DNA from: a virus
Virus record (IMG/VR): IMGVR_UViG_3300048573_000167
Span: 1-21,710 of that record
Length of the DNA stretch: 21,710 nt
Direction: 5' to 3' (one strand)
Positions 4,010 to 13,357 of this stretch are shown here, piece after piece. Position numbers and translations under genes: made by a program. The notes beneath the pieces are model-generated. The model made no database searches, was not told where the DNA came from, and worked only from the letters and a program-made list of their open reading frames with translations. The first letter of the stretch is position 1; the number at the start of each line of letters is the position of its first letter.

Positions 4010-4310
4010 CGAGTTAGGGCGAAAAATTACAGTTTTAGCAGGGCGTAATTCGAAAGTAAGTAAGCTACAAAAAGACCACCTTAGAGACAGTGGGAACTAT
4101 CGCGTGAAGCCTTACAATGTTTTGACTGTATCACAAAACTATTACGGTAAGTTTAACACACCGAAAGGGAAGCCCACGACACAGGACAGAGACAGATTGA
4201 AAGATACCCCGATGCAAAATTCTATTAGAGAAAATACAGAGGATGGGGTAAAAGTTTTGATAAAAGATTTAGTAACTTTGTTAAAAAGTCCGATAGTAAC
4301 CAAAAAATAA
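3948..4310 (+). CDS. Second small gp10-like neck protein
   Basis: This 120-residue basic protein starts at a GTG 62 bases before the end of the previous gene. It contains 'LRDSGNYRVKPYNVLTVSQN' (about 45-64) and then 'YYGKFNTPKG', the same DSG / YYGKFN layout as gp10-like head-tail joining proteins. The overlap and the shared layout suggest a diverged pair of neck proteins, or a short two-gene split of one function. No ATG start fits; the GTG gives a natural MARRKTIQ start. Confidence 0.65.
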   Translation: MARRKTIQEKKIEATITKHLNELGRKITVLAGRNSKVSKLQKDHLRDSGNYRVKPYNVLTVSQNYYGKFNTPKGKPTTQDRDRLKDTPMQNSIRENTEDGVKVLIKDLVTLLKSPIVTKK

Positions 4311-4312
4311 AA

Positions 4313-4339
4313 CCGTGTAAAGATGCACGGAACTTTACA
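4313..4339 (+). promoter_or_regulatory. Hairpin with alternative pairing before a tail gene start (copy 1 of a shared motif)
   Basis: CCGTG (4313-4317) pairs with CACGG (4326-4330), and a T-G pair closes the loop AAAGAT. A second hairpin, TGTAAAG (4316-4322) with CTTTACA (4333-4339), is also perfect and cannot form at the same time. The element ends two bases before the ATG at 4342, so either fold could affect translation of that gene. A second copy of the CGTGT-RAAGAT-GCACG hairpin lies at 10711, and the downstream text TTAC..AAAA..TAGCAAC is similar in both. TAACTTTG at 4273-4280 fits a -7 box, but the nearest TTTTG is only 13 bases upstream of it. Confidence 0.5.
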
Positions 4340-4341
4340 AA

Positions 4342-5496
4342 ATGCTAGCAACACCAACACTCACGAATATAGATTCCAAAGCAAAGATATTCTTTGCTCA
4401 AAGTCCAATCCATTTTAATTTACAAAACGATGCGTTAGACGCTTCGATTCAAAAAATAACAGTTGAGGTTTACATTTGGAGAGGGTTTCAAGCAGCCGAC
4501 TTGCCGACAGCTCCGAGCGTGGTTTTTAATAACATACCTAAGATTTCGCCTGATGATAATTATATAGCTATTGAAATTCACAACGAAGTCAAAGCATTTA
4601 TAACCTCATCAAACCTAAACAAGAACAACCCACAATGGGCATACAATACAACCGATGTTCCAACAACAGCAGGTGAGGGATGTTATTTTCATATTGTTTA
4701 CAAAGTTGACACAGAAACAGTCAAGCAATTAGGAACTTACTTTGCAACCACTGGCTATCGCTACAACTTCGAACAAACAGGCGGTAATTACACAGGGTAT
4801 CAAAACGTCGAAACGTTCAGGAAGTATGCGAAATCGATAAATTATGCTGCATACGATTTTGATTTGACAACAGTAGTTGCAACTTCATACTCAGGGCGTG
4901 GGGAAAATGGTGTTATTTGGGAAAACCCAATCAATCCAAGCGTTAGAGAAACTCAAACGGGGGTAAAATCATTGATAGCTTACGTAAATCGTTTAGGGTT
5001 GTGGGATACTTTTACCCCATTTGGGAAGTTTACTGAATCAATAGACACGAAAAGAGACGAGTTTAATAGTTCTTTTCGCGATCCTTTGAACGTAAACAGC
5101 CAGATTCAACACCTTAAACAAACAGGCGCACCGAGAGGAACAAGAAAATTTACTATTAACACGGGATTAATTGACGAAAACAATAATTATCAAGTGCGTG
5201 AAATCCTGCAAAGTTCAAAAGTTTACTTAGTTATCTTTAATGATGATGTATTTTTGACAGCCAGTACAGGGCTTACAATCGATAGTACAGTAGTCACTAT
5301 CGATGATACAAGCATTACAATTGACAGCGATACAGTTACGATTAATGACATAGGATTCTATTCTAAATTCGTGCAAATTCCAGTAAAAAACTTAACTACA
5401 AATTTCTTAAAGAAAACTAGATTAAATGATAAAAGTTCAATATCTTATACACTTGAATTTGAGGAAACAAATAATTTTATAAATGATATTCAATAA
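4342..5496 (+). CDS. Tail structural protein (Bacteroidetes phage type)
   Basis: This 384-residue protein has no signal peptide or membrane segment, and strand-rich composition throughout. It opens MLATPTLTNIDSKAKIFFAQ and contains an early 'QKITVEVYIWRG' strand pair (about 37-48). Near the C-terminus are four 7-residue repeats beginning TID or TIN (about 312-339). It precedes a 745-residue structural gene (1-base overlap) and the tape measure, which places it in the tail or baseplate. No specific family could be named. A tail tube role is possible, but the 171-residue protein at 12783 is the better tube candidate. A hairpin element lies directly upstream of its start. Confidence 0.65.
   Translation: MLATPTLTNIDSKAKIFFAQSPIHFNLQNDALDASIQKITVEVYIWRGFQAADLPTAPSVVFNNIPKISPDDNYIAIEIHNEVKAFITSSNLNKNNPQWAYNTTDVPTTAGEGCYFHIVYKVDTETVKQLGTYFATTGYRYNFEQTGGNYTGYQNVETFRKYAKSINYAAYDFDLTTVVATSYSGRGENGVIWENPINPSVRETQTGVKSLIAYVNRLGLWDTFTPFGKFTESIDTKRDEFNSSFRDPLNVNSQIQHLKQTGAPRGTRKFTINTGLIDENNNYQVREILQSSKVYLVIFNDDVFLTASTGLTIDSTVVTIDDTSITIDSDTVTINDIGFYSKFVQIPVKNLTTNFLKKTRLNDKSSISYTLEFEETNNFINDIQ
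5275..5358 (+). repeat. Four 21-base coding repeats (7-residue TID repeats)
   Basis: The translated units are TIDSTVV, TIDDTSI, TIDSDTV and TINDIGF, in tandem, inside the 384-residue tail protein. Bases have diverged more than residues, so the repeat is kept at protein level. Alternating T/I/V positions suggest short stacked beta strands. Confidence 0.8.
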
Positions 5497-7733
5497 TGGT
5501 TTCACTATTTATAAAATATTCGGACAATAATTTTTATCTTTTAGATTTAGATCCGAGCGAGGCTATTAATTTTAAGGTAACAGTAAAAGACTTAAACGAT
5601 ATTACTAAAGTATTTTCTCCCTTTACGCAATCTTTTAAAATCCCTGCCACAGATAAAAATAAAAGATTGTGCGGTTTTATTGGTAATGAAAAAACTTTGA
5701 AGCTAAACAATGCGGGAGAGTTCGATTCAATGATTTATATTTCGGGGTTTCTTTTTCAATCTGGCAAACTTACATTCGAACAATCCGATTATGAATTTCA
5801 AGACCAAAAAGAATTTCAAGCAACATTTGCTTCTAACCTTTCAAGTCTAACAGACAAGCTAGGTGAAACCACTATTCAAGAATTGTTCCAAGATATAGAC
5901 GGCAATTTCGACCCACTTGTAAATACTATTTGGGATAAAAATATATTGAAAGCGAGAATGGGAGGGGTTAAAAGTAATACATTGTCCAATGGAATTGTTT
6001 TTAAGTTTGGTATTCCTTTTATTTCAAACAATAGAGTTTGGAATTACAATGAAAGCAATTTGTCAATAGTTGACAATATTGCTTATAAATTGACAAAAAC
6101 CACAACCGATATTAATTTCATAAACCTTAACGAAGTTCGTCCTTCGGTCAATTATATGTCAATAATGGAACACCTACTTTTAAAAATAGGAACCCCAGTA
6201 ATTTGTCCAATATTCGAAAAATCGGAAGTTAACGACTTGTTTGTTTGGTGTAATTCTGAAAGTTTAGTCGTGAATAATGCGGTCGCTTTTCCTTTAGTTG
6301 ATTATTCAGCTATTTATAAATATAGATTCGATACCAAAGATGAAATCATAGGGGTTTCACTTCCAACAGTTCCAAAGTGGACGGTAACAGAAATAGCAGG
6401 TTTTTTTAAAATTAAAAGAAATCAATCCGCCCCATATCAGGATAAGTGGAGCGATGGCATTGATATAATGATTACTTTTAATGGGTTGGTTGCTGTCGAA
6501 GGAACAGAAACAAAAGTAAAAGTAAATATTAGAAGAACAACAGATAATTCAATCTTAAACAGTCAAGAAATTACTGGCAACTTTTTTAGTTGGAGGTTAA
6601 TCGACAATACAAACGGAACTACTCAGCTAGATGCGAACGGTGAAATATATTTAAAAGTTGAGGTTTTGCCTTTGATTTTAGTCAAATGGGATAACATTCG
6701 GGTTGCAACTTTGCAAAAATTCAGAAGAGACAAAAAGACGCTTGGGGTTAATTTAGTAACAAGAGCTTCTTTTGCCTCTGAGTCAAACAACTTTGCTAAT
6801 TCAGAAGATTTAGGAGGGAATAAATTAAACCTAATTAGTTGTTTACCTAAAATGAAATGTGTGGACTTTTTAAAATCATTTTTCAAAACTTTCAATGTTT
6901 CAGTAATTAGTACAGGTTTACAGGATCAATCTATGTATTGGGTTACGCCTGAGAATTTGAAAGAAATTAATAAACCATATTCAAAAAGAATAGTCGATTA
7001 TACACAATTTACAAATATAGCTAGCTTATCAAAGAAAAAAGCAAATCAATACAATCAATATTCGTTTAGTCATTTTAATTCTAAATATTACGAAGCTAAT
7101 TATGGCAACGGCACTAAGTTTGGTGAGTTACAATATCCCGGAACACCTCCTACAAAACCCACTAAATTTGAGGTAAAAACAGATTATTCTATTTTAAAAC
7201 AATCAAATACTTTTCCGCACCCTTCAACGGCAAAGACTTGTTTAGGCTTTGCCAACGAGTCTCCAACAGTAAACGATCAGGGAGGTAACAGGTTTAAACC
7301 CGTTTATGAGGAATTTACAATTTTTTATTTAGAATCTAAAGAAATTAATTTTAACCCAATAAGTTTGGAAAATTTACCAACTCAGAATAATCGATTAGAT
7401 TCTATACTAGAAGCAAGTTTTAAATGTTCAAACAAAAAAACTTTGGCTTTTGGAGCAGAGGGTACGGACATGGGTAGTTTATATTTGAATTATTACGATG
7501 AATTTATTGAATTGCTTTTAAGCACAAACGCTTATAAATCTGAATTTAATTTAATTTTACCGCCAAATGAAATCTTTTTGAACTTCGCCAATCTGAAACA
7601 AGGCGAAAGTAATATACCTAATGGCTTCAGACCACAAAATGAAATCATAATTGGCGAACAGAGATATAAATTAGTAGATTCTACTATTGATTTAACAACA
7701 GGAAAAACAAAATTAACATTGCTAAACTTCTAA
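5496..7733 (+). CDS. Large tail or baseplate structural protein
   Basis: This 745-residue protein begins with a segment familiar from large structural proteins of Bacteroidetes phages: 'DPSEAINFKVTVKDLNDI' (about 19-36), then 'FSPFTQSFKIPATDKNKRL' (about 40-58), a strand-rich module that often opens tail-associated proteins of this group. The rest has mixed strand content, a cysteine-bearing region around residues 447-457 (ISCLPKMKCVDF) and a C-terminal strand module ending TTGKTKLTLLNF. No enzymatic motif was seen. The position just before the tape measure supports a tail-tip or baseplate role. The ATG at 5496 overlaps the preceding TAA by one base. Confidence 0.7.
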   Translation: MVSLFIKYSDNNFYLLDLDPSEAINFKVTVKDLNDITKVFSPFTQSFKIPATDKNKRLCGFIGNEKTLKLNNAGEFDSMIYISGFLFQSGKLTFEQSDYEFQDQKEFQATFASNLSSLTDKLGETTIQELFQDIDGNFDPLVNTIWDKNILKARMGGVKSNTLSNGIVFKFGIPFISNNRVWNYNESNLSIVDNIAYKLTKTTTDINFINLNEVRPSVNYMSIMEHLLLKIGTPVICPIFEKSEVNDLFVWCNSESLVVNNAVAFPLVDYSAIYKYRFDTKDEIIGVSLPTVPKWTVTEIAGFFKIKRNQSAPYQDKWSDGIDIMITFNGLVAVEGTETKVKVNIRRTTDNSILNSQEITGNFFSWRLIDNTNGTTQLDANGEIYLKVEVLPLILVKWDNIRVATLQKFRRDKKTLGVNLVTRASFASESNNFANSEDLGGNKLNLISCLPKMKCVDFLKSFFKTFNVSVISTGLQDQSMYWVTPENLKEINKPYSKRIVDYTQFTNIASLSKKKANQYNQYSFSHFNSKYYEANYGNGTKFGELQYPGTPPTKPTKFEVKTDYSILKQSNTFPHPSTAKTCLGFANESPTVNDQGGNRFKPVYEEFTIFYLESKEINFNPISLENLPTQNNRLDSILEASFKCSNKKTLAFGAEGTDMGSLYLNYYDEFIELLLSTNAYKSEFNLILPPNEIFLNFANLKQGESNIPNGFRPQNEIIIGEQRYKLVDSTIDLTTGKTKLTLLNF

Positions 7734-7736
7734 ACA

Positions 7737-9749
7737 ATGGCCGACGAACAAGAAAATATTAAATTAAATTTTGACAGCAACGCAAAAACGGTTGCTGGCG
7801 ATGTTAATAAGTTATCAGCATCGATTGAAAGTACCACAGCATCGACTAACGAAAACAATCAGGCAGTTGAACAAGGGAATCAATCTTATAAGACTTTCAA
7901 AACACAACTACGAGAGGCAAATCAAGAGTTGCAAAAGTCAATACAGTTGTATGGCGAAACGTCAGCCGAAACTGTAAAAGCAGCTAAGGCGGTTGCTGAA
8001 TTAAAAGATCAAATGGGATTTGCTAAGGATTTGTCAGAGCAGTTTAACCCCGACCAAAAAATGAAAGCGCTTGGCGCAGCTACGCAAGTAGCAGGTACAG
8101 GACTTCAAGGAGTTACTGCTGGTATGGCTTTATTTGGCGACCAATCAAAGGACACACAAGCACAATTATTAAAGGTACAGGCCGCTATGGCTTTTAGTGA
8201 TGCGTTGAGTAATTTATCAAACATTGGCGACCAATTTTCTATTTTAAAAACGACTGTTACCGACGTTTGGAAAAGTTTAACAACGGTAAAAACATTAGAT
8301 AGTGCAGCAACGGCAGTTAATACAGGCGCAGTAGTAGCGAACACTGGGGCAGTAGTAGCTGAAACAACAGCGGTAACAGGTTCAACTGTAGCTACAACTG
8401 CAGCGACAATAGCGACTAATATTTGGAACGCGTCGCTGGCGGTTGCACTAGCACCGATAACATTAATAGTTGCAGGTATTGCAGCATTAGTTTTAGGAAT
8501 TGGATATTTGACGGGGGCGTTTGGAGACTTTTCAGGGGAGCAGTTAAAAGCGGAGGTCGCTAATAAAAAGATGTCTAATTCTATTGAAGCACAAGAAAGG
8601 GCATTTAAGAAAAATAACGAACAACTAGAATTAAGTCAAAGCAGAACGTTAGGACTTGCAAAGGCACAAGGGCAAAGCGTTGAGCAAATCCAAAAATTAG
8701 AAAACGCACTAATTAATCAGGAGGTTGCAGAAAAGCGATTGAATGCGGTAAAACTGCAATCGATATTTATTGAAGCTAGTCGAATTTCAGGGTTAGAAGA
8801 TGCTACTGATTCACAAAAGAAAACAACTGAAAAAGCTTGGGAGGCTTTCAAAAAAGCAAATGAAAACTACAACGATAGTTTGACCGAAAGAAAAAAAATC
8901 GCTATTAATCACGAAATCGAAATGGCTTCCGAAAAGAAGCAAGCAGATGACAGGGCGGCTGAAAAAGCAAAAGAGCGTAGAGAAAAGGCACAAGAGGAGG
9001 CAAAAAAAGCATCTGAAAAAGCGAAAGAAGATGCTATAAAAGAAAAAGAATACTATATTAAAAGAGCCAATGAATTTGAGGAGGCTCAGGCAGAAATAGA
9101 GTTTAACAAAAAGCAAAAAGAAAAAGAAGATAAGGAAAAGGAATATAATGATGGTTTGCAAGCGCAAGCCGACAAAGCAAAAACAGAAAGCGATATAGCA
9201 AACAACGCTGCCGAGGAAAAGAAAAGACGGGAGGAGGTTATTTTTCAGCAAGAGGAGGTTATTCAAAACGCTAAATTAAGCCTAGCAAATCAGGCTGTTA
9301 ATTTATTCGGACAAATATTTGGCAAGTCTAAGAAAGCACAAAAAGCATCATTACTAGCTAGTAATGCAGTTGGTTTGGCTGAGGTTGTAATCAATACACA
9401 AAAAGCGGTAAGTGCAGATATCGCTGTTCCATTTGGAGCTGGATTGCCTAAAGTCCCTATTGACATAGCGAGTGGTTCGCTTGGGGCAGCATCTATTATA
9501 GCAGCAACAGCCAGAGGTTTGAAAGAATTAGGGGGTGGGTCTGTAGGTAATGCGCCATCATTTGGAAGTACAACAGCAGCGAGCGCACCACCAACTGTAG
9601 CTTTCAACAATACGGCCGAGAACCAAATTGGGCAGTCGGTAGCGTTGAAAGCAACCGAGCAACCACCGCTAAAAGTCTATGTGGCCGAGAGTGACATATC
9701 GAACGCTCAAAATAATGTGAAAGTTTTAGTAAAAAAGAACACGTTTTAA
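7737..9749 (+). CDS. Tail tape measure protein
   Basis: This 670-residue protein shows the usual tape-measure layout. A helical N-terminus rich in Q, A and K (about 1-110) is followed by an A/T/V-rich region (about 185-230), then a strongly hydrophobic stretch 'LAPITLIVAGIAALVLGIGY' (about 236-255). A long charged coiled coil of A, E, K repeats follows (about 400-500), and a G/A-rich C-terminus ends in a basic tail. Such proteins fix tail length and enter the cell envelope with the DNA. The length suggests a tail of moderate size. The opposite strand is open for long stretches over the coiled coil, which is a composition effect. Confidence 0.85.
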   Translation: MADEQENIKLNFDSNAKTVAGDVNKLSASIESTTASTNENNQAVEQGNQSYKTFKTQLREANQELQKSIQLYGETSAETVKAAKAVAELKDQMGFAKDLSEQFNPDQKMKALGAATQVAGTGLQGVTAGMALFGDQSKDTQAQLLKVQAAMAFSDALSNLSNIGDQFSILKTTVTDVWKSLTTVKTLDSAATAVNTGAVVANTGAVVAETTAVTGSTVATTAATIATNIWNASLAVALAPITLIVAGIAALVLGIGYLTGAFGDFSGEQLKAEVANKKMSNSIEAQERAFKKNNEQLELSQSRTLGLAKAQGQSVEQIQKLENALINQEVAEKRLNAVKLQSIFIEASRISGLEDATDSQKKTTEKAWEAFKKANENYNDSLTERKKIAINHEIEMASEKKQADDRAAEKAKERREKAQEEAKKASEKAKEDAIKEKEYYIKRANEFEEAQAEIEFNKKQKEKEDKEKEYNDGLQAQADKAKTESDIANNAAEEKKRREEVIFQQEEVIQNAKLSLANQAVNLFGQIFGKSKKAQKASLLASNAVGLAEVVINTQKAVSADIAVPFGAGLPKVPIDIASGSLGAASIIAATARGLKELGGGSVGNAPSFGSTTAASAPPTVAFNNTAENQIGQSVALKATEQPPLKVYVAESDISNAQNNVKVLVKKNTF

Positions 9750-9760
9750 TTATTTTTAAT

Positions 9761-9768
9761 TATATTTG
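9761..9768 (+). promoter_or_regulatory. Candidate Bacteroidetes promoter -7 box TATATTTG
   Basis: TATATTTG matches the Bacteroidetes TAnnTTTG -7 consensus exactly and lies 12 bases after the tape-measure stop. No clear TTG -33 box is present 17-23 bases upstream, so the promoter is incomplete. The predicted transcript would start at about 9775, at the foot of the first hairpin. Confidence 0.45.
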
Positions 9769-9772
9769 CATA

Positions 9773-9852
9773 GTTGAAAGTCGGAAGTCAACACCTAATC
9801 TCATTAACAAGACTCTTTAGAACTGCCGACTCGGTTCTATTGGGTCTTTTTT
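9773..9852 (+). ncRNA. Structured leader or small RNA with kissing-loop potential
   Basis: The 136-base gap between the tape measure and the ParB-like gene holds two hairpins. Hairpin 1 pairs GTTGA (9773-9777) with TCAAC (9788-9792). Hairpin 2 is a terminator-like arm (9809-9852) whose apical loop CCGACT (9826-9831) is the exact complement of AGTCGG (9779-9784) in the loop of hairpin 1. In addition GACTC occurs twice (9811-9815 and 9828-9832) and both copies can pair with GGGTC (9842-9846), so two folds of the arm compete. Whether this is an attenuator of the downstream gene or a free RNA of about 80 bases is open. Confidence 0.45.
9809..9852 (+). terminator. Probable intrinsic terminator or attenuator after the tape measure gene
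   Basis: AAGACTC (9809-9815) pairs with GGGTCTT (9842-9848). After a small internal loop, AGAACTG (9819-9825) pairs with CGGTTCT (9832-9838), leaving a 6-base loop. The stem runs into a T tract that ends at 9852. Both stems contain one G-T pair. It would end tail-gene transcription, or attenuate reading into the ParB-like gene 16-34 bases downstream. Confidence 0.6.
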
Positions 9853-9885
9853 AATTTATATAATATCATTAAAACAAGAATTGAA

Positions 9886-10674
9886 TTGATTGGAAAAGAG
9901 GAAGCTATTAATTATTTATCTTTAAACAAAAAAAACAGACCTCTTAGACAAGTAATTGTAGACAACTATGCGCTAGAAATGAAAAGAGGAAATTGGAGGA
10001 AAAACACTGGCGAAGGAATTAAATTTTGTAAAAAAGGTTTTTTAATTGATGGGCAACATCGATTAAGTGCTATATTGCAATCTGATAAAAAATTCAATAT
10101 GCTAGTAATTTATGATATTGAAGAAAATGTTTTTGATGTTTTAGACACGGGTAAAAATAGAGGGGCAAGTGATGTTTTTGCTTTAAGCGAAATTCCTAAT
10201 TATGCTCAAACATCTACTATTGTTAAAGAGTATATTAGCTTTTCCGAAAGCAGATTTTATAAAACAACAGCAAGGGAAATTTTAGATTTGTCAAACTCAG
10301 GATTGTTAAAAAAATACAATGAAAACCCAAACCGATTTAATGAAAACACAAAATTAGCTCAAAAATTTTCTAATAAATTGAATCGTGTAATGTCAGTTAC
10401 AAACATAGGTTCTTTTTTATTAATGTTTTCTGATAAAAACGAAAACGAAGCTATCGACTTCTTTGAGAGGCTTTGCGGCATCAAACATAATGATGTTATA
10501 GTTATTGATTTGTTACTGGATTTTTTAATTAAAGATAAAATTTCAAATAAAAAAAGTTCAACTAATTTAAAATATGCCTACATTATAAAAACTTGGAACG
10601 CTTATAGATTGAAAAAGGAATTAAAACTTTTAAAATTTGATGATACAAAAGAAGAATTTCCTATTATTTTGTAA
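9886..10674 (+). CDS. ParB-like DGQHR-domain protein
   Basis: This 262-residue protein has a ParB N-terminal-like domain: 'KKNRPLRQVIVDNYALEMKR' (about 15-34), then LIDGQHRLSAI (about 53-63) and 'FDVLDTGKNRGASDVF' (about 83-98). ParB-fold proteins bind DNA and some bind nucleotides; related single-domain proteins are common in phages with unknown roles. The C-terminal half is helical and lysine-rich and is not recognised. The annotated start is a TTG at 9886. The frame is open further upstream, and an ATT at 9868 would give MKTRIELIGKEEAINYL, a more natural domain start. The gene is visibly more A+T-rich than its neighbours and has regulatory signals on both sides, which suggests an inserted accessory gene. 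Confidence 0.75.
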   Translation: MIGKEEAINYLSLNKKNRPLRQVIVDNYALEMKRGNWRKNTGEGIKFCKKGFLIDGQHRLSAILQSDKKFNMLVIYDIEENVFDVLDTGKNRGASDVFALSEIPNYAQTSTIVKEYISFSESRFYKTTAREILDLSNSGLLKKYNENPNRFNENTKLAQKFSNKLNRVMSVTNIGSFLLMFSDKNENEAIDFFERLCGIKHNDVIVIDLLLDFLIKDKISNKKSSTNLKYAYIIKTWNAYRLKKELKLLKFDDTKEEFPIIL

Positions 10675-10701
10675 TTAGTATTAAATAATTACTTATATTT
10701 G
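10668..10701 (+). promoter_or_regulatory. Bacteroidetes-type promoter before the capsid genes
   Basis: TTTG at 10668-10671 and TATATTTG at 10694-10701 match the Bacteroidetes -33 and -7 consensus, with 22 bases between them (17-23 is usual). The -33 box overlaps the stop of the ParB-like gene. Transcription would begin near 10708, just before the first hairpin of the leader. It is the best promoter in the window and would drive the protease, capsid and tail-tube genes. Confidence 0.65.
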
Positions 10702-10710
10702 TTGCAAATA

Positions 10711-10749
10711 AACGTGTGAAGATGCACGTTACCAAAAATTAGCAACGTG
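10711..10749 (+). promoter_or_regulatory. Leader with mutually exclusive hairpins (copy 2 of the shared motif)
   Basis: AACGTG (10711-10716) pairs with CACGTT (10725-10730) around the loop TGAAGATG. The same CACGTT can instead pair with a second AACGTG (10744-10749), so two 6-bp hairpins compete for one strand, as in attenuators and riboswitches. The second AACGTG contains a GTG that opens a 17-codon frame. The first hairpin matches the element at 4313 with one compensatory pair change (A-T here, C-G there). Confidence 0.5.
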
Positions 10750-10800
10750 AAAACCTTTAAATTTAGACAAAATACAGCCTATACTATTAATTTAGTATAG
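10747..10800 (+). other. Possible 17-codon leader peptide frame
   Basis: A GTG at 10747 opens a frame encoding VKTFKFRQNTAYTINLV, which stops at the TAG at 10798-10800 inside the terminator stem. Translation would place a ribosome on the terminator hairpin, and the GTG would be hidden in the second leader hairpin. It may be chance: a short frame with a non-ATG start is weak evidence. Confidence 0.2.
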
Positions 10801-10810
10801 GCTTTTTGTC
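10766..10810 (+). terminator. Very stable terminator hairpin before the protease gene
   Basis: AGCCTATACTA (10776-10786) pairs perfectly with TAGTATAGGCT (10793-10803) around the loop TTAATT. After a 3-base bulge, GACAAAA (10766-10772) pairs with TTTTGTC (10804-10810). This gives 18 base pairs with A and T tracts on the two sides, so it could act in both directions. It lies between the promoter at 10668 and the protease ATG at 10822, so the promoter's transcripts must pass it. That is an attenuator layout. Confidence 0.8.
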
Positions 10811-10821
10811 GTTGTATTTAT

Positions 10822-11727
10822 ATGAAAAGATACGAATTGAAATATACGAAAGGAGAAACAGGGGTGTTCAGAATGAGTACAGTTGAAAGTCCTGCTATTG
10901 GTGCAACGTTGGTAATGTTCGACGACGAAAATAAACTTTTAGAGTTTGCAGACGATGAAAAGCAAGTGATTTATTCAGTGGCAATGCGTCCTAATATTTT
11001 AATCCCACGCAAGAATATAAACGGAGAGCCATCAATGGTCTTTTATACAGAGGAAACCGTTTCAGATTTACAGCAAAATTTCTTTAAAAACAATTCACAC
11101 AACGGAGCCACAATTAACCACGATAAGAATATTCGTAATGATATCTACGCTTTTGAAAGTTGGATTGTTTCAGATCCCGAAAGAGATAAAGCAAAACTTT
11201 TAGGAATGGCAGTTGAAAAGGGCGATTGGGTACTCGGCCAAAAAATTGACAACCCTGAAGTGTGGAATGATATTAAAAGTGGAAAGCTAAAAGGCTTTTC
11301 AATCGAAGCTTATTTAGAACCAATATTAACTAATACAAAAACAGAAATGACAACAGAAGAGATCGATGCCAGAATTAAGGCTATTTTAATGGAAAGCGAA
11401 GAAGAAAAAGCCGCTAAGTTAGCAATGGAAGCGACACTACCTGCGCCAGCAGATGAAGAGCCGAAAGAACCTGAAATATCAGGCGAAGCAATGCAATCGA
11501 AAATTAAAGAACAAGAAGCTGAAATTAACGACTTGAAAGCTAAATTGGCAGAATATGAAGCTAAAGAAACTACAATGTCGGAGGAATTGGCAACAGCTAA
11601 AAAAGTAGCTGTTGAAATGGGAGAGGAATTGGCAAAAGGAATTAAACCAAATCCAACCACACCACAAAAGACATATTCTGAAATGAGCAACGTCGAAAAA
11701 GCAAAATACAATCGAGGAAAATTATAA
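10822..11727 (+). CDS. XkdF-like prohead protease with fused scaffold-like tail
   Basis: This 301-residue protein has an N-terminal XkdF-like serine protease domain (about 1-168). Visible features are 'ATINHDKNI' with H100, 'FESWIVSDPERDKA' (about 111-124), 'KGDWVLGQKI' and 'KSGKLKGFSIEAYL' with S160; H100 and S160 are the likely catalytic pair. The remainder (about 176-301) is charged, helical and coiled-coil-like, as in scaffolding proteins. An in-frame ATG at codon 176 (11347) could begin a separate scaffold product. Capsid maturation proteases of this kind cut the scaffold and sometimes the capsid protein. The gene follows a leader and terminator and precedes the capsid gene by 21 bases. 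Confidence 0.85.
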   Translation: MKRYELKYTKGETGVFRMSTVESPAIGATLVMFDDENKLLEFADDEKQVIYSVAMRPNILIPRKNINGEPSMVFYTEETVSDLQQNFFKNNSHNGATINHDKNIRNDIYAFESWIVSDPERDKAKLLGMAVEKGDWVLGQKIDNPEVWNDIKSGKLKGFSIEAYLEPILTNTKTEMTTEEIDARIKAILMESEEEKAAKLAMEATLPAPADEEPKEPEISGEAMQSKIKEQEAEINDLKAKLAEYEAKETTMSEELATAKKVAVEMGEELAKGIKPNPTTPQKTYSEMSNVEKAKYNRGKL

Positions 11728-13324: not shown

Positions 13325-13357
13325 AACCCTCCTTAGAATTAGGGAGGGTTATTTTTT
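13325..13357 (+). terminator. Strong intrinsic terminator after the capsid and tube genes
   Basis: AACCCTCCTTA (13325-13335) pairs with TAGGGAGGGTT (13340-13350) around a GAAT tetraloop: 11 pairs, one of them G-T, with a G+C-rich core, followed by A and six T. It closes the protease-capsid-tube unit 27 bases after the last stop. No clear promoter was seen between it and the next start at 13363. Confidence 0.85.

Follow-up and report, generated by a model that had tools for sequence, protein, structure and literature searches.

A short RNA hairpin occurs at two places in the 21.7-kb linear virus record IMGVR_UViG_3300048573_000167 (hereafter the window, meaning the whole stretch of 21,710 nucleotides that was analysed) and recurs in several lineages of Bacteroidota phages. 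Judged from sequence, it is a real and apparently undescribed phage RNA element, whose structure and anatomy are strongly supported and whose mechanism we infer. With a probability of about 0.42, we consider it a cis-acting signal of leader RNAs that would condition the read-through of built-in terminators and would be read by RNA polymerase or by a host factor. Gene regulation in Bacteroidota phages, abundant gut phages included, is little described, and the open-access literature searched contained neither the core sequence of the element nor a described antitermination system of such phages, the papers found on the latter subject being general ones. A covarying RNA element common to unrelated lineages, with the clear anatomy of a promoter, a hairpin and then a terminator or a start codon, suggests the existence of a host factor recognising the hairpin, would help to annotate transcription units of phages in metagenomic data and might account for the way in which these phages switch on late operons.

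The two hairpins of the window

The genes listed in the window all lie on the + strand and code for, among others, a terminase, tail proteins, a tape-measure-like protein, a head-maturation protease (PF14550) and a portal protein. The first hairpin (4313-4330, + strand; CCGTGT-AAAGAT-GCACGG, CCGTGTAAAGATGCACGG) is intergenic and has no promoter of its own; it occupies the gap between a gene end at 4310 and the start of a tail-region gene (4342-5496, + strand), is followed by the conserved N-A-C with its C at 4333, folds by itself (-9.3 kcal/mol, z -4.0 for 4311-4341) and scores an E value of 9.9e-10 with the covariance model. A preliminary description of this DNA placed it two bases before the ATG of the tail gene; the actual distance is 11 nt. 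Among relatives of this gene, the hairpin is present in some phages and missing in others.

The second hairpin (10712-10729, + strand; ACGTGT-GAAGAT-GCACGT, ACGTGTGAAGATGCACGT; E 6.6e-11; N-A-C after the stem, with its C at 10732) follows a Bacteroidota -7 promoter element, TATATTTG, at 10694-10701 on the + strand. Taking this element to span -12 to -5 relative to the transcription start (Baez 2019, PMC6847099), the +1 falls at 10706, and the predicted RNA begins with AAAUAA and enters the hairpin at about +7. The hairpin had been proposed to stand at the 5' end of the predicted head-protease/capsid transcript, and this promoter bears the proposal out. A leader intrinsic terminator (10776-10807, + strand; 11-bp stem, loop TTAATT, T tract) separates the promoter from the protease gene (10822-11727, + strand), which is the first gene of the head operon. 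The leader also holds a possible, weak short reading frame of 17 codons (10747-10800, + strand) with a GTG start and a stop codon in the terminator's 3' arm. Within the head operon there is a second intrinsic terminator (13325-13356, + strand), and the sequence from it to the next gene (13363) has no promoter-like box. No third hairpin was found in the window, either in a scan allowing up to three mismatches or with the covariance model run with filters off (next best E 1.8); the 16-nt core gives two perfect matches there vs 0.13 expected at up to three mismatches.

Structure and conservation of the element

The element can be written stem-U-[GAAGNN]-(G/A)-stem' followed by N-A-C; the hairpin has a stem of 6 bp, closed by U.G, and a hexaloop. 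Scanning 2.9 million viral contigs with the core returned 74 loci, which is about the raw chance number on our own rough estimate of the size of the collection; the carriers are metagenomic contigs, copies were ascertained partly by core sequence, and promoters and terminators throughout are computed. The inner stem pairs are partly fixed by the search pattern and the outer pair is free, so that pairing was recounted on loci located through the neighbouring tail or protease protein and not through the hairpin sequence.

In 39 distinct copies, 99.6% of the pair cells are paired, with a covariation score of 0.429 vs 0.113 after shuffling; the outer pair is CG, AU, GC, UA, GU or UG in different copies and unpaired in none. 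The protein-anchored copies behave alike, with 97.6% of cells paired, a covariation of 0.508 vs 0.139 and, for four of the six pairs, substitutions in both partners. The covarying pairs sought in related phages are present, and the difference first described between the two window copies (outer pair C-G in one, A-T in the other; both hairpins on the + strand) belongs to a wider pattern in which copies within one genome vary in stem sequence and keep their pairing. Tolerance of G.U pairs favours an RNA over a DNA palindrome. The loop, on the other hand, is kept across stems as different as CGATAT/GTATCG, ATGTGT/GCACAT, AAATGT/GCATTT and CCTTGT/GCAAGG. Near-invariant positions are the closing U.G, pair 3 (U-A), loop G4 (57/57; G at loop position 1 in 56/57) and the C three bases past the stem, which lies outside the search pattern and is found in 55 of 57 copies; they indicate that sequence as well as shape is read by something.

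A chance origin was rejected on these pairing statistics and on loop counts. In a stem-plus-loop scan, the GAAGAT loop occurs at 40 promoter-linked sites vs 0-1 for permuted loops, and 36 whole contigs contain 35 sites with a GAAG loop and both a promoter and the C at +3 vs 0-2 for each of twelve control loops, where two sites with an AAAG loop appear to be true variants. Together with the fixed place of the hairpin at promoter 5' ends and its companion intrinsic terminator (below), the covariation, loop and 3' C support the earlier suggestion of a regulatory RNA family.

Other parts of that description proved narrower. The second, mutually exclusive folds it proposed (TGTAAAG/CTTTACA at the first hairpin, CACGTT/AACGTG at the second) are confined to the closest kin of the window: six or more complementary bases occur in 2/21 and 2/40 copies vs 0.8 and 0.65 expected, and stems change without a matching change downstream (L121, L018). 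The similarity in TAGCAAC 3' of the hairpins is likewise not general.

Promoters, leaders and terminators

The settings of the core loci are not those of random matches, since most follow a Bacteroidota -7 box, TAnnTTTG. The hairpin is oriented strictly with respect to the promoter, and of 53 promoter copies, 43 have their first hairpin base between +2 and +10. What lies downstream is bimodal, with long leaders and short ones. An intrinsic terminator beginning 15-57 nt past the hairpin is present in 37/45 long leaders, making promoter-to-terminator units of about 100 nt whose terminator loops are mostly TTAATT; a strict terminator definition gave 20/40 vs 0.3 in shuffles. The terminator is associated with the hairpin, as 17 of 20 hairpin promoters have one vs 30 of 125 other promoter-like sites on the same contigs (Fisher p=2.5e-7). 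All 14 head leaders of lineage A examined have a terminator ending 9-27 nt before the gene, and 8 of these 14 operons have another intergenic terminator 2.7-3.5 kb further on, mostly with no promoter-like box after it. In the short copies the hairpin stands 8-15 nt before the ATG in 16/21, mostly at 10-12 nt, with a few at 22-26 nt.

We note a second class of leaders, devoid of the hairpin, in which 6-8 nt of a promoter-adjacent 5' segment are complementary to the loop of the intrinsic terminator that follows. From leader to leader the sequences vary and the complementarity is kept; at least seven bases are complementary in 8/26 such leaders vs 0.28 expected (largest 2 in 200 shuffles). The window has one at 9761-9849, where AGTCGG (9779-9784), which a GTTGA/TCAAC stem closes into a loop, has its complement CCGACT at 9826-9831, and others lie, in contig coordinates, at G017 14856+, G023 32071+, G013 18976- and 21636-, G011 22593-, G033 16645- and G029 16474+. 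These leaders may be kissing or pseudoknot attenuators. The window gene between the two leaders (9886-10674) has an IDGQHR motif; it strongly matches phrog_5931, a family of unknown function, and weakly matches GmrSD_N, under the curated cut-off.

Distribution among phages and hosts

The carriers belong to at least three lineages, of which one comprises phages resembling the window, another temperate phages of the gut, and the third (C) is likewise from the gut. Gut temperate carriers have several hairpin copies per phage, and the genes behind them look, on our own reading without database matches, like those of a terminase small subunit, antirepressors and structural proteins. One copy (L062; IMGVR_UViG_3300049181_000084, 6738-6842, minus strand) lies directly upstream of a phage tRNA-Ala (GGC) gene and not of a protein gene. 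Another locus, L080, lies on a contig of a named strain of Prevotella vespertina. In two gut phages (G003 and G002; loci L012 and L009), a second box, ACGAAARGAC, recurs 3' of the hairpin, often right before the start codon.

Among annotated phages, the closest relative found was Nonlabens phage P12024L, and it lacks the hairpin. When 50,697 phage records were searched with short queries, the matches were weak only, in unrelated phages, with one more to the human-gut contig MT836351. Bacteroidota host genomes are at background, with 11/395 positive at E<=0.02 and about 8 expected, and a host housekeeping element was rejected on this count. No protein family common to all carrier lineages was found.

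Candidate functions of the hairpin

In the read-through mechanism that we favour, the emerging hairpin would be bound at once by the host elongation machinery, be it RNA polymerase itself, a host RNA-binding protein or a Nus-type factor, and the polymerase so modified would pass the terminator of the leader and those further on, whereas an unbound hairpin would leave only the RNA of about 100 nt to be made. Promoterless copies in mid-operon, among them the one at 4313 before the tail gene, would serve to establish or renew the modification ahead of the terminators at 9810-9849, 10776-10807 and 13325-13356. The position at the transcript start, the leader terminator, the terminators within operons and the copy before a non-coding gene all fit a signal acting at the level of transcription. 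Since unrelated phages share the hairpin and no protein family, the factor that recognises it is probably host-encoded, or RNA polymerase itself; a host NusG paralogue such as UpxY could be the reader. A phage-encoded reader is disfavoured by the want of a common protein family and by the absence of a NusG homologue (PF02357) from 23 carrier contigs, a search in which positive controls were detected. A search for ANTAR-domain proteins gave no match in the carriers, and none in the control genomes either.

Several points weigh against read-through. Phages also use mid-operon terminators simply to set gene dosage, and the short-leader copies have no terminator directly after the hairpin. It would be unusual for one short hairpin to act on polymerase directly, given that the put RNA of phage HK022 has two stem-loops in about 70 nt. 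Lastly, the near-constant spacing of 10-12 nt between hairpin and ATG in the short copies fits better with a role linked to translation, as does an ATG 6-16 nt past the hairpin in 13 of 31 long leaders vs 3.7 in shuffles (largest 9 of 500).

Such a role, in which the hairpin would be an operator or enhancer of a start codon some 10 nt downstream, is the strongest competitor, although we hold it to be rather unlikely. The start codon would be the gene's own in the short copies; in the long leaders, a small leader frame translated into the terminator would block its folding, as in attenuation, and a stop codon is indeed found inside the terminator in 7 leaders vs 1.5 expected. Against this, a start codon within range is missing from at least ten nonredundant leaders, one copy precedes the tRNA gene, and in the window group the conservation of leader nucleotides continues through frame-changing indels; short intergenic gaps alone, moreover, would put a hairpin near an ATG.

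Less probable still is that the unit of promoter, hairpin and terminator produces a trans-acting small RNA, with the hairpin as a 5' stabiliser or protein handle and the downstream genes expressed by leak-through. The size and anatomy of the long leaders would suit this, and in lineage C the leader contains CAUUGCUCUUA, the antisense of UAAGAGCAAUG, which is the gene-start context of many genes in the phage concerned; leaders of the hairpin class form pairings as long as 16 nt. The other lineages, on the contrary, show no excess complementarity to gene starts, so that a general antisense role was rejected, and the short-leader copies sit directly on messages and yield no separate RNA. Within lineage C (G001, G010, G014, G015 and G016), we observe that many genes start with this context, that several promoter-terminator leaders carry its exact antisense and that leader-target pairings in the same phage reach 21 nt (G001, with a leader of the ATTTCATTGCTCTTAGTGTGT type), which suggests that these phages encode small RNAs targeting their own start sites.

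That the hairpin is a 5'-terminal stabiliser protecting phage messages from host decay dependent on the 5' end agrees with its start close to +1 at promoters but leaves unexplained the conserved loop and 3' C, the association with terminators and the in-operon copies far from any promoter, and we regard it as improbable. The preliminary description also raised a module-boundary sequence acting in recombination as DNA, which would accord with the location of the window copies at borders of gene modules; we consider this most implausible, because homologous recombination needs sequence identity, yet stems within one genome differ, keep their pairing and tolerate G.U, and the orientation to the promoter is strict.

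Comparison with known systems

Rfam gave no RNA-family match at the window hairpin (E up to 5) or at 13 related loci (gathering scores), the only RNAs found being tRNAs. The Flavo-1 RNA (RF01705), with which a comparison had been proposed, comes from the same phylum, but a covariance search of the window gave no match to it at E values as high as 5. Among antitermination signals, the lambda nut site (boxB and boxA) and the rrn boxB-boxA share with our element a small hairpin near the transcript start and a loop of the GAAGA type, that of lambda boxB being a purine loop containing GAAGA. Here, by contrast, the loop is a hexaloop closed by U.G whose position 5 may be U, and boxA is not enriched beside the hairpin outside lineage C. 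The lambda-type boxA candidate of lineage C, GCTCTTA, was rejected as the reverse complement of the gene-start context described above and lends no support to a nut site.

The targets of ANTAR proteins comprise P1 and P2 hexaloops with A1 and G4 (PMC3369936). They resemble the element in having a hexaloop with an invariant G4 upstream of an intrinsic terminator, but our element has G at loop position 1 in nearly all copies, one hairpin instead of two and no hairpin overlapping the terminator stem. In the dfn leader, a small hairpin recruits LoaP, a NusG paralogue, past an intrinsic terminator (PMC12691694), and the arrangement of a single small 5'-leader hairpin and then an intrinsic terminator is the same; the dfn loop is nonetheless of the UNCG type and belongs to a biosynthetic operon of a Bacillus host, whereas ours is U[GAAGNN]R, and the 23 carrier contigs searched lack a NusG homologue.

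HK022 put is a processive antitermination RNA located near early promoters that needs no dedicated protein (PMC9378689). Our element is likewise a phage cis-RNA near promoters with terminators downstream and no dedicated phage protein found, but put is larger and occurs twice in one lambdoid phage, as opposed to one 6-bp hexaloop hairpin spread over many Bacteroidota phages and operons. We tentatively raise the possibility, doubtful as it is, that the element is the counterpart of HK022 put in Bacteroidota phages: a minimal processive antitermination RNA of about 24 nt, common to phages that are otherwise unrelated, which the host transcription machinery would read with no phage protein involved.

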